A stretch of DNA of 40,613 bases. Source: a virus. The notes under the pieces were generated by a model. That model was not told where the DNA came from and searched no databases. It saw nothing but the letters and a program-made list of their open reading frames with translations. The DNA lies in the IMG/VR virus record IMGVR_UViG_3300034095_000282, positions 1 through 40,613 of that record. One strand, written 5' to 3'. Positions 22,741 to 35,463 of this stretch are shown here, one piece after another. Every line of letters begins with the position of its first letter. Position 1 is the stretch's first letter. A program made the position numbers and the translations under genes.

Positions 22741-22765
22741 TATGTATTTGGTTTTAATTATTAGT

Positions 22766-22905
22766 AATGAAGATGGGATTCGAACCCATACGAACGCAAT
22801 TTTGGATTGACCTGTGCGTTATCTACAAACGAATAACATAGGCTGTGTTCTGCTCATAGCGTCTACCACGTCAGGGAGATACCCCTAACCTTCCGCCACT
22901 TCATT
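22766..22905 (-). tRNA. tRNA-like element with interrupted core (possibly Leu-derived)
   Basis: Read on the minus strand, AATGAAG and CTTCATT form a perfect 7-bp acceptor stem. Just inside the 3' arm is a textbook T arm: ATGGG-TTCGAAT-CCCAT (22773-22789). After the 5' arm come TG, GCGGAA and later GGTAGACGC, the A-box/D-arm signature of bacterial tRNA-Leu. The D loop, however, holds a hairpin (GTTAGGG pairing CCCTGAC, 6-base loop). Between D and T arms there are 69 nt, about twice the Leu length, with hairpins GTTAT/ATAAC and AACGCA/TGCGTT and no clear 7-base anticodon loop. So I cannot give an anticodon. It is either a tRNA with insertions, a decayed tRNA or a tRNA-like RNA of another kind. 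No CCA is encoded. Confidence 0.5.
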
Positions 22906-31313: not shown

Positions 31314-33095
31314 TTAAAATGGAATATCGTTAACATCAAAAGCATCTAATGGACTAATGAATGGTAACTTTGTTTCTGTTATTATTTCTTTTGTTGTTTC
31401 TATATTAGAATAAATAGAATTATTTCCTATGATAAATGGTAATCCAGTTGAATTATCTACATCATATTCAAACTTATCTATTGGGAATCCTCTTGTGTGT
31501 GTAAACGTAGCAGTTACAACTCCATCGTTATTCAACACAGAGCAAACCGTCTCAGCTTTCTTAAGCATAGAAGATCCGATATGACCTACAGCCTTAGATG
31601 TTCCGTAGTTAGAGTGAAGGATTGTAGTCAAGTGAAATTGCTTATCATCTGTCCACTTCATAATCTTCTGAATAGCTTTCTGACTCTCCTTTAAATCATT
31701 AAAGTCATCAACTAAATCCGCAAGACCATCTATACCTACAAGACCAATGTTATCTTTAATATCGCTCTCATAAATCAACCACTCTATAAACTCTAATCTC
31801 TGCTTAGGTTCGTATGGTCTTAGTGCAAATGGTTTATAGTATTCATAGTTATCTTGACCAATCATCCTCATGACTCTTTTAAATACGTTTTGAGCGTGAA
31901 AAGCACTCTGTTCAGTGTCTATGTCCACCACGAAGCAATCTCTGTCTCTATGACTCTTAATTGAAGCTGCATATCTATTTGAATTGCCACCTATGTAAGA
32001 TGCCATTATCATAGACTTTAAGAATGTCTTCTTAGATTTAGATGCACCAACTATGCAAGAGAAGTTTCCGTATGTTCCAAATGGTATAGGGAATACTTTG
32101 TTTCCTAGCGTATGTTCTCCGATACTAATAGCCACTGGAGGATACTCTATCTTCTTCGTTACATCTACAAAAGCACTATCGTAAATGTTATGGAAGTTAA
32201 CCTTTACTTTGGTTTCTACCTCTATTGAAGATGGTTGGTATGCTTCAAACGTAGACTCATCACTAAATGATTTGGTATTGAATAAGTGAGACTTTCTATA
32301 AGCACTCTCTACACAGCTCTTGATTTCTTCTTCATCAAAACCTGCACTGGCGAACTGCATTGTAATTCCTTTAGCCTCCATCTCTGAGATACCAAATTCA
32401 TTAAGAGCCATAGATAATATATAAACATTTCTATTTCTCTCTCCTTCAACCATTCCATATTTATCATCCCACCATTTCAATAATCCCTTAACAACTCTGT
32501 CGTTGTCTTGAACAATTACTGATGATGCACTTACTTTAGATGATAATTCTTTTGGCTTTGCCTTAGTTGAGAACACAAAGCTATCTTTGTTTATGAAGAT
32601 TTCAGAATCAGAACTCATATAGCAGATTCTACTTTCATTAACACAACTCTCATCAAAATAAGGAGAGTTATAGTGTTCTTTAAGACCATTGAAATATGAT
32701 CTGTGATTGTCGTGGTCAGTTGGTATCTTAACAATAACCTTTAGTCCATCTCCACTTGGAGATATAAATACTGAATATGTGTATTTGTCTTTAACTAAAT
32801 AGTTTCTGTAAAATGTTAATGAATCTTCATTCTCAAATCCATCAAAGTCTAAGCATATAAAACCACTATGTTGAACCAGTGCATTATCTGCTCTGCTACT
32901 AAACTCTCCAGAGAATAGAACGCAAGGTAACTTCTTCTTAAGAACATTACGACTGCTTTTATCTCTCTCTTGTCTGATAGAGTAAACTAAATCCTTACAC
33001 GCCTCCTCTTGTATTCTTTGTAGAACGTAATCAACTTCTACATACTTTGGAGAGTTAAGAGAGTATAGATCTCTAAATACTGTTACTTTACTCAT
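31314..33095 (-). CDS. Primase-helicase-like replication protein
   Basis: 593 aa. Residues 1-180 match the BT4734-like/VirE N-terminal primase fold, with the acidic pair in CLDFDG (81-86) and ISPSGDGLKVIV (111-122). A helical linker follows, then a RecA/RepA-like helicase domain: P-loop GASKSKKT (350-357), VDIDTE (390-395) and GLVGIDGLADL (451-461, Walker B), and a later HSNYGTS. The Walker A motif lacks the usual Gly before Lys-Thr, a variant I have seen in Bacteroidetes relatives. The last residues, DVNDIPF, resemble an SSB C-terminal tip. It lies 2 bases after the initiator gene and is probably the replisome's priming and unwinding protein. Confidence 0.75.
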   Translation of the reverse strand: MSKVTVFRDLYSLNSPKYVEVDYVLQRIQEEACKDLVYSIRQERDKSSRNVLKKKLPCVLFSGEFSSRADNALVQHSGFICLDFDGFENEDSLTFYRNYLVKDKYTYSVFISPSGDGLKVIVKIPTDHDNHRSYFNGLKEHYNSPYFDESCVNESRICYMSSDSEIFINKDSFVFSTKAKPKELSSKVSASSVIVQDNDRVVKGLLKWWDDKYGMVEGERNRNVYILSMALNEFGISEMEAKGITMQFASAGFDEEEIKSCVESAYRKSHLFNTKSFSDESTFEAYQPSSIEVETKVKVNFHNIYDSAFVDVTKKIEYPPVAISIGEHTLGNKVFPIPFGTYGNFSCIVGASKSKKTFLKSMIMASYIGGNSNRYAASIKSHRDRDCFVVDIDTEQSAFHAQNVFKRVMRMIGQDNYEYYKPFALRPYEPKQRLEFIEWLIYESDIKDNIGLVGIDGLADLVDDFNDLKESQKAIQKIMKWTDDKQFHLTTILHSNYGTSKAVGHIGSSMLKKAETVCSVLNNDGVVTATFTHTRGFPIDKFEYDVDNSTGLPFIIGNNSIYSNIETTKEIITETKLPFISPLDAFDVNDIPF

Positions 33096-33097
33096 GA

Positions 33098-33898
33098 CTA
33101 TTTGATTATTGGTTTTAAATACCCACCCTCTATTGCTATAACATTCTTGTTATGTTCCCAAGATTTCTTTTGTTTCTCAGTAAGCAATTCTATTTGCTCT
33201 TTAGTTAACTCTCTTGAAAACCAATCAGAAGGAAGAGTACCTTTTTTAAATGTTGCATTAGAAAACTTCTCTATCTTATCAGCTCTTGACACAAACTCTG
33301 GAGTTAGATACTGAGGATTGTTTGTTAGAAATTCATCTTTACTACATGCGACAATGGTCTTTAGTATGTCTTCTTTAGTGTATCCCTCTTTCAATGCATT
33401 TTTAAATTGATTTTTTGTTTTTGAATTTATAACCTTGAAGTTTCTACCTGTGGTTTTATTAAAGAATACCAACAAAGAATCGAAGTCAATCGCATTGGTT
33501 TTATTATTTAAGTCTTTAATTATATTAGTACTTAATTGTGGTTGATTTTCCACGTGTGGGTTATCCACGTTTGGGAAACCTGAATGTGGATGAATCTCTT
33601 TATTTATAGGGGTTTCAAAAAATGTGTATTCAATTCCAGAAATATTTCCTTTATCATCTCTAGATCTAATTTTTGTTAAATAACCATGTTCCTCTAGCTC
33701 GTCTATCGAACTATAAATTGATGTCTTACCCTCTAATAATATTTCTTTAATACCATTAACAGAGAAATCCCATCCTGGAGGAAGGCTCATTATCGTGGCG
33801 AAGAATCCTTTTGACTTGCAACTTATATTCTTGTCTTTGAATATTGTGTTGTTAATTGTAGTGTAGTTGTGGTCTTTAACGACCCTAAATATTTTCAT
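33098..33898 (-). CDS. Replication initiator protein (HTH plus Phg_2220_C)
   Basis: 266 aa from the ATG at 33898; a TTG at 33916 could add 6 residues. The N-terminal 100 residues are a winged-helix domain (KSKGFFATIMSLPPGWDFSV, then YSSIDELEEHGYLTKIRSR) as in phage O-type initiators. The domain at about 140-210 (LLVFFNKTTGRNFKV, then KTKNQFKNALKEGYTKEDIL, then YLTPEFV) is the conserved phage C-terminal domain Phg_2220_C. The linker between them (about 105-130) is encoded by DNA with tandem 15-bp repeats, as in lambda O. It sits 2 bases before the primase-helicase, matching an initiator-helicase loader pair. Confidence 0.75.
   Translation of the reverse strand: MKIFRVVKDHNYTTINNTIFKDKNISCKSKGFFATIMSLPPGWDFSVNGIKEILLEGKTSIYSSIDELEEHGYLTKIRSRDDKGNISGIEYTFFETPINKEIHPHSGFPNVDNPHVENQPQLSTNIIKDLNNKTNAIDFDSLLVFFNKTTGRNFKVINSKTKNQFKNALKEGYTKEDILKTIVACSKDEFLTNNPQYLTPEFVSRADKIEKFSNATFKKGTLPSDWFSRELTKEQIELLTEKQKKSWEHNKNVIAIEGGYLKPIIK
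33500..33593. other. Candidate replication origin inside the initiator gene
   Basis: Two tandem 15-bp repeats, TTTTCCACGTGTGGG (33546-33560) and TTATCCACGTTTGGG (33561-33575), agree at 13 of 15 bases. A third copy in the opposite direction (33579-33593; minus strand TCATCCACATTCAGG) agrees at 11 of 15. Each starts with a DnaA-box-like 9-mer; TTATCCACG and TCATCCACA differ from TTATCCACA by one base. A strongly AT-rich stretch (33500-33538) lies next to them. Iterons plus an AT-rich zone within the initiator gene's linker is the layout of the lambda origin. Confidence 0.5.
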
Positions 33899-33916
33899 AT
33901 CAATTATTTTAAACAA

Positions 33917-34043
33917 AAAATCCCTTAGAAATCAGGCAGTTGTGTGAGAGATGCCTTCAATCCAAGAGATTATTTATTAATTTTCCGATATATAGTTATT
34001 TGTCTCTCACCTCAAATAACATTGCAAATATACAAAAATACTT
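33917..34043 (-). promoter_or_regulatory. Leader of the initiator gene with an 8-bp inverted repeat
   Basis: The non-coding stretch before the initiator carries GTGAGAGA (33944-33951) and its complement TCTCTCAC (34003-34010), 51 bases apart, plus a -7 box at 34025-34032. The repeat could be an operator pair or the base of a large leader hairpin. I see no T-run or riboswitch pattern. Confidence 0.4.
34025..34032 (-). promoter_or_regulatory. -7 promoter box (TATATTTG on the minus strand)
   Basis: Perfect TAnnTTTG in the leader upstream of the initiator gene, giving a leader of about 120 bases. A TTTG further upstream lies about 35 bases away, too far for a -33 box, so the match is partial. 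Confidence 0.4.
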
Positions 34044-34632: not shown

Positions 34633-35463
34633 TTAAACGTATATTAAATTAGTTTTATTTGATCTATTTCCATTAAGGTAATGTCTTAATGTATTTTCAT
34701 TAATTTCAATACTTTTAGATGCTTCGTTACATCCAACGTAAAAAACACCTGTTTGTGTGTTTAGTATTATTCTGCAATTTTTACCTTTTTTAGCTTTACT
34801 TAATTTGTTTTTAGTTTCTTCTGATGTAACTCTTCCCTTTCCAGTTTCGCTAATTTTCTTTTTAGTTTCCTCAGAGTGCTTCATACCTTTTCTAGATTCA
34901 CTCATTTTCTTTTTAGACTCTTCACTAATTTTCTTTCCTTTTTGACGTTCACTAATTTTTAGTATAGTTTCTTCAGAGTGTTTCCTTCCTTTTTGAGATT
35001 GACTCATCTTTTTTTTGGTTTCTTCCGTAGGTTTTCTTCCTAACCTATTGTTCATTTCTTCTTCTGAAATTTTCCTTCCCTTTTTAGTTTCACTTATTTT
35101 CTTTTTAGTTTCTTCAGAATGAATATATCCTTTTTTACCTTTACTGATGTTATTTTTAGTTTCTTCGGAGTATTTTCCACTTCTATCATTTGTGTTTGTT
35201 AGCTTGCAATTTAAACCGTTTTTGTTAATCACGCTAAATGTATCTTGATAGTATCGTTCTTTTTCATTTAGTTCTTCTAAGCTACACTCGCAAAGTATTT
35301 CAAATTTATGTTTATCGACTCCGTACTTTAAAAATGAGTTGTATAATCTGTATTGTTTTTTACAATTCAATAACTTATAAGTGTTAAACCTTTTTTCAAT
35401 GTCAACACTTTGACCTATATAAATCTTTCCAGAAGGACTAGTTATTTTGTATATACCTATCAT
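34633..35463 (-). CDS. GIY-YIG homing endonuclease with NUMOD repeats
   Basis: 276 aa. Residues 1-85 form a GIY-YIG nuclease domain: [17 protein letters not shown] (3-19), the Arg in KRFNTYK (24-30), the basic/aromatic [16 protein letters not shown] segment and Glu68 in LNEKERYYQ. Residues 99-229 are eight NUMOD3-type repeats, and 231-276 resemble a NUMOD1 HTH ([20 protein letters not shown]). Such free-standing enzymes cleave intron- or gene-lacking alleles and spread themselves. No intron surrounds it: it lies between an intact-looking 97-aa gene and the DnaA-like gene. Its target may be a neighbouring replication gene of related phages. Confidence 0.9.
34777..35169 (-). repeat. Tandem NUMOD3 coding repeats
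   Basis: Eight units inside the homing endonuclease gene, seven of 17 residues (51 bases) and one shortened to 13 residues ([13 protein letters not shown]). Each follows the pattern [17 protein letters not shown], so the DNA has a visible 51-base period of A-rich sequence. Confidence 0.8.

Follow-up and report, generated by a model that had tools for sequence, protein, structure and literature searches.

The DNA analysed here, referred to throughout as the window, is a complete IMG/VR virus record of 40,613 bases. Its nearest named DNA relatives are Flavobacterium phages of the genus Elemovirus, and the host of the virus is probably a Flavobacterium-type bacterium. The minus strand carries a replication initiator gene followed by the gene for a primase-helicase with a BT4734-like N-terminal domain (Table 1). 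The initiator is composed of an N-terminal HTH_36 winged helix, a disordered linker, a Phg_2220_C domain and a C-terminal tail. Both Pfam matches are just over threshold (25.6 bits against a cut-off of 25 for HTH_36, PF13730, and 28.1 bits against a cut-off of 27 for Phg_2220_C), with HTH_36 also matched by 38 of the 41 aligned relatives, and PHROG 428, 'replication initiation protein', matches with E=3.6e-29. In the predicted structure the winged helix is confident, the second domain is helical and residues 101-133 are disordered (pLDDT<50); the DNA coding for these disordered residues is the DNA that holds the repeats. The original prediction, made from the sequence alone, that the repeats reside in the linker-coding part of a winged-helix initiator is borne out by the two domain matches and by the disordered linker of the model. 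A scan of genome contigs for the initiator found no relative, no clear relative emerged when solved structures were searched by sequence, and Foldseek returned no match at E<0.001.

Table 1. Features of the replication region, in window coordinates
Feature	Position	Strand	Evidence or remark
Primase-helicase gene (BT4734-like N-terminal domain)	31314..33095	-	Presumed to be loaded at the origin
Replication initiator gene	33098..33898	-	266 codons, ATG at 33898; Pfam, PHROG, structure model
Initiator C-terminal tail, candidate primase-helicase dock	33101..33241	-	Shared tail motif; docking putative
AT-rich stretch around TTAAGTACTAATA	33495..33540	-	Sequence
AT-rich element TTAAGTACTAATA, candidate unwinding site	33523..33535	-	Unique exact match in the window; conserved in relatives
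Iteron unit 3, dyad CCACACGTGG	33550..33559	-	Sequence
Iteron unit 2, dyad CCAAACGTGG	33565..33574	-	Sequence
Iteron unit 1, dyad CCACATTCAG (degenerate, with an intact left half-site)	33580..33589	-	Sequence; 15-bp register with units 2 and 3
Conserved structured RNA leader, replication operon	33914..34020	-	Alignment, covariation
TATATTTG, Bacteroidetes-type -7 promoter element	34025..34032	-	Sequence; TAT(A/C)TTTG conserved in leader alignment

Several Flavobacterium phages (the window, L238, L225, L242, L024 and L243-L245) have the RNA leader, which lies between the promoter of the replication operon and the operon's first gene; the ORF downstream of the leader varies between phages. In its structure, GTTATT and AATAAC form one stem, AATCCTAAC and GTTGGGATT form a second, long stem that runs out into a U-run, and a loop-loop helix joins the two. 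In the leader alignment 96% of cells are paired and five pairs have changed on both sides, an outcome equalled by none of 500 shuffles. An Rfam search with the leader gave no match. A search with the leader pattern returned 22 hits, most of them in large contigs, and the two distinct ones shown were rejected as unrelated sequence. Our guess is that the leader may act in cis, in antitermination or attenuation.

The coding-strand sequence of the linker is CCACATTCAGGTTTC CCAAACGTGGATAAC CCACACGTGGAAAAT CAACCACAATTAAGTACTAATA. Three units lie here in a 15-bp register, each a 10-bp dyad of the form CC-N6-GG followed by a short, mostly A-rich spacer; unit 1 is degenerate, and good dyads are present in only two of the three. 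The two head-to-tail 15-mers first noticed at this site, CCCAAACGTGGATAA and CCCACACGTGGAAAA, are indeed found in the linker codons of the minus (coding) strand, are identical at 13 of 15 positions, and are the only places in the window where an exact CCAMACGTGG occurs. The AT-rich stretch said to lie beside them is adjacent as well, with TTAAGTACTAATA starting 24 nt past the start of the last dyad. The inverted third copy has to be reinterpreted, as it is no independent inverted repeat. Each unit is itself a dyad, and TGTGGATGA (plus strand, 33585-33593) forms the left half-site of unit 1, CCACATTCAG, a further direct copy set exactly 15 bp from unit 2.

Considered in the window alone, and given the peptide, the tandem match does not beat its null, as 8.5% of synonymous resamplings equal it (p=0.085). 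The case that the repeats exceed chance thus rests on relatives. This figure is what would be expected if the repeats answered a need of the protein, namely a flexible linker made up of pentapeptides of the P-x-V-E-N type, whose by-product would be the DNA repeat; most relatives do have a five-codon period, in keeping with such an explanation.

The relatives compared were 198 homologous genes in 68 clusters. Since the CCN6GG motif was picked from the compared genes themselves, the neighbouring domains were used as an internal control. Linkers hold 138 copies of the motif in 12.2 kb, whereas the N-domain DNA (19.6 kb) has 21 and the C-terminal DNA (21.0 kb) has 25; the enrichment in linkers is about 10-fold over the 68 clusters, and 71 of the spacings are exactly 15 bp. 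In-frame units are missing in 22 of the 68 clusters, about a third, many of which carry other arrays. Plasmids fetched after the motif had been chosen carry dyads in three of four cases.

Within the dyad, base 3 falls on the silent third position of a Pro codon and base 8 on the second position of a codon further along. By a gene-weighted count the two are complementary in 32.4 of 46 genes, where 15.1 would be expected and 5000 shuffles gave 25.8 at most; the excess at the inner pairs is weaker. The class of half-site switches at least 13 times on the tree of N-domains, and a stricter test on independent pairs goes in the same direction, with too few pairs for significance (six usable for the commonest class). 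This covariation of a silent wobble base with its dyad partner speaks against a pentapeptide by-product, as do three further observations. In the Leptospira interrogans plasmid pLiSL5 (L249), the dyads are 14 bp apart and fall in three reading frames, and thus cannot be explained by a peptide repeat. Several types of initiator encoded beside related primase-helicases have linker repeats of their own, and in some of these the repeat length (11, 22 or 23 bp) is not divisible by three. Finally, the peptide changes freely: between the window and its sister phage L002, amino-acid identity is 78% in the N-domain and 74% in the C-terminal part, versus 25% in the iteron codons. A need of the protein is therefore very unlikely to account for the repeats. 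The original prediction had held that repeats conserved no further than the protein sequence requires would count against an origin; in the relatives, conservation extends beyond that requirement. These comparisons show that evolution preserves the linker DNA itself, and not only the protein, in some 200 relatives.

In L002, the nearest relative, units 2 and 3 have gone from CCA..TGG to CCG..CGG, and the DNA of the AT-rich element is 95% identical. Such a switch would fit a binding site that changes together with its reader. In the wing, residue 78 (encoded at about 33665-33667) is R in the window and Q in L002, and over the labelled genes Q tends to accompany the CCG class; this residue is a possible specificity determinant, an association that is statistically insecure because independent pairs are too few.

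The AT-rich element is conserved in its own right. At the corresponding position in relatives, AT content reaches 0.74-0.84, and in many families the array is followed by CAATTAA(A/G)TACTAATA or CTACTAA(A/G)TACTAA. The core of the element is present in 38 of the 68 clusters and almost never in other parts of these genes. Under a synonymous null, TAAATACT would be expected in 3.0 clusters and TACTAATA in 3.8, whereas each is found in 25. Codon choice follows the same pattern, with threonine in the context of the motif coded by ACT in 92 of 105 instances as opposed to 10 of 28 outside linkers. The register is also fixed: in 19 of 20 genes, the distance from the first base of the last dyad to the first base of the element is 24 nt, or 39 nt if an additional unit deviates from CCN6GG. 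Plasmid Rep proteins recognise a specific sequence on one strand of an unwinding element of this type (PMC4081077), and by analogy this suggests a similar role for the AT-rich element described here.

The repeat units had also been described as containing near-perfect DnaA boxes, with the proposal that host or phage DnaA-type proteins may bind them, and by extension open the origin. There are in fact three 8/9 matches to TTWTNCACA clustered within about 50 bp, and across the compared genes box-like sites are roughly twofold denser in linkers (4.5 per kb, versus 1.7-2.3 per kb elsewhere). The excess, however, belongs to genes of the CCA..TGG class, 12 of 14 of which have such sites, and is far smaller in the CCG..CGG class (7 of 21), and box-like sites are, by reading, absent from the linker of the nearest relative. 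Nor is the window enriched for them, with 100 matches at no more than one mismatch compared to 137 in shuffles. The likeness to DnaA boxes arises because a CCA half-site followed by an A-rich spacer produces it. Conserved DnaA boxes were accordingly rejected on the class distribution and the window counts, the proposal of DnaA binding is unsupported, and an origin opened by DnaA through these sites is most improbable.

Placement of repeats and an AT-rich element within an initiator gene has close parallels. The rep gene of Lactococcus phage TP901-1 carries CCAGATGTGG units at 15 bp followed by CTACTAAATACTAATA, in the same register as in the window; it differs in its half-site sequence, in its C-terminal domain and in the phylum of its host. 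Its product is annotated as an experimentally shown replication protein, and the repeats were reportedly found necessary for replication by Ostergaard and colleagues in 2001. For ORF20 of Staphylococcus phage 80alpha, a homologue of SPP1 G38P, tblastn gives E=2e-14 over 75% of the query at about 26% identity, and the winged helix, linker and second domain are homologous to those of the window initiator. The ORF20 linker contains four CC-N6-GG dyads at 15 bp and then CTACTAA/GTACTAA repeats, the same layout as in the window, whereas the partner gene encodes a DnaC-type helicase loader in 80alpha and a primase-helicase in the window phage. ORF20 and ORF21 drive plasmid replication, and deletion of ORF20 was not complemented in trans, which was read by the authors as an origin embedded in the gene (PMC5499656).

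In the staphylococcal plasmids pSK41 (RepA_N) and pPR9 (HTH_36 N-domain), the origin likewise lies in the middle of the rep gene, in the linker-coding stretch (PMC5703833). The N-domain of pPR9 is of the same Pfam family as that of the window initiator, and it and the origin move as a unit; the pSK41 counterpart is replaced in pPR9 by roughly 500 bp that comprise the HTH_36 N-domain and origin and replicate autonomously (PMC5703833). These replicons differ from the window in being plasmids with another C-terminal domain, and RepA_N itself is a different domain family. RepA_N (PF06970) is absent from the Pfam matches of the window initiator (E 0.001) and of 41 relatives (E 0.01). Structure comparison does place RepA_N proteins among the best matches (4pql, Z 8.5, rmsd 3.8 A over 88 residues; 4pt7, Z 8.3; 5kbj, Z 7.9), a likeness at the level of fold only, with many unrelated winged helices close behind.

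The original prediction had drawn its model from phage lambda, whose gene O contains ori-lambda, a set of dyad-symmetric iterons that are linked by A residues and lie next to a region of high AT content (PMC6022878). Like the window, lambda has dyad iterons inside an initiator gene next to an AT-rich region, but there are four of them, each an 18-bp hyphenated inverted repeat, as opposed to three 15-bp units with 10-bp dyads. The part of the analogy that concerns logic, with initiator-binding iterons in the initiator's own linker beside an AT-rich region, is strongly supported by the comparison and by 80alpha ORF20 (PMC5499656) and pPR9 (PMC5703833). Kinship with lambda O is another matter, as the O-like PHROG matches are weak (phrog_18020, E=2e-5; phrog_345, E=8.7e-4), far below that of phrog_428.

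Taken with the published work on homologues, the layout, its conservation in relatives at the level of DNA and in register, and the joint switching of half-sites between close relatives argue that the linker-coding DNA of the initiator gene is very probably the replication origin of the phage. GC skew gave no origin signal across the window, where skew follows gene direction. Dyad arrays are also typical of operators, and with a promoter and structured leader just upstream, the dyads could be sites through which the initiator or another regulator controls the replication operon, the origin lying elsewhere. However, the sites are some 320 bp inside the gene and away from the promoter, an operator has no need of a conserved AT-rich element at a fixed register, and the 80alpha homologue has its origin in the gene (PMC5499656). 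An exclusively regulatory function is thus given little credence, while it is possible that the dyads serve as origin and operator both.

If the linker-coding DNA is the origin, initiator dimers would bind the three 15-bp dyads through their winged-helix domains, in phase along the DNA, and the bound complex would strain and open the AT-rich TTAAGTACTAATA, one period further on. The C-terminal part of the initiator may then bring to the opened strand the primase-helicase that the phage itself encodes in the next gene downstream. As site and reader are contained within one gene, the N-domain plus origin could move, and change specificity, as one cassette.

Initiators beside related primase-helicases are consistent with such movement, as their N-domains differ among phages and are unrelated. 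Modules thus look to have been swapped at the origin, with the N-domain and origin apparently behaving as an exchangeable cassette. A shared C-terminal tail is seen despite unrelated N-domains and differing linker repeats in the window, L013, L015, L017-L021 and L025. Its motif, REL..Q..LL..W....EGG.L.PI, is present in 10 of 17 helicase-neighbour initiators and in none of 66 other HTH_36 clusters, and a tail seen in helicase-neighbour initiators only may dock the helicase.

An origin within the initiator gene is in itself a known arrangement, given the precedents of TP901-1, 80alpha, pPR9 and lambda. The present comparison adds the rule for the dyads, the fixed register, and the finding that the AT-rich element is conserved at synonymous sites; parts of this may have been described before. 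Tentatively, and with rather less than even confidence, a single replicator rule may hold across phages and plasmids of several bacterial phyla, whereby tandem CC-N6-GG dyads that switch with the protein are combined with a near-invariant, sequence-specific AT element, TTAARTACTAATA, at fixed phase, read in single-stranded form by the initiator or a conserved partner. Under such a rule, the specificity of an origin would evolve within a single gene, through dyads that switch in concert and cassettes that are exchanged. Gene-embedded origins have so far been described singly, and the dyad rule can find them in raw phage and plasmid genomes, with the comparison revealing selection on DNA within coding sequence. 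The window and L002, which have the same gene with switched half-sites, are a natural pair for the study of joint specificity change of initiator and origin, and the conserved AT element makes sequence-specific unwinding directly testable.

HTH_36 genes with dyad arrays are also present on plasmids, for instance in L249 (pLiSL5), L251 (Enterococcus faecium) and L248 (Virgibacillus). Annotated only as hypothetical or helix-turn-helix, these genes are candidate replication initiators. Elsewhere in the window, an Rfam tRNA match at threshold (29.1 bits) is spread over 141 nt (22765-22905, minus strand), with good acceptor and T arms and a large insert; ARAGORN predicts no tRNA there, and the match is possibly an interrupted or relic tRNA. 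Near the replication genes, a GIY-YIG endonuclease with six NUMOD3 motifs (34633-35463, minus strand) is likely a homing endonuclease.
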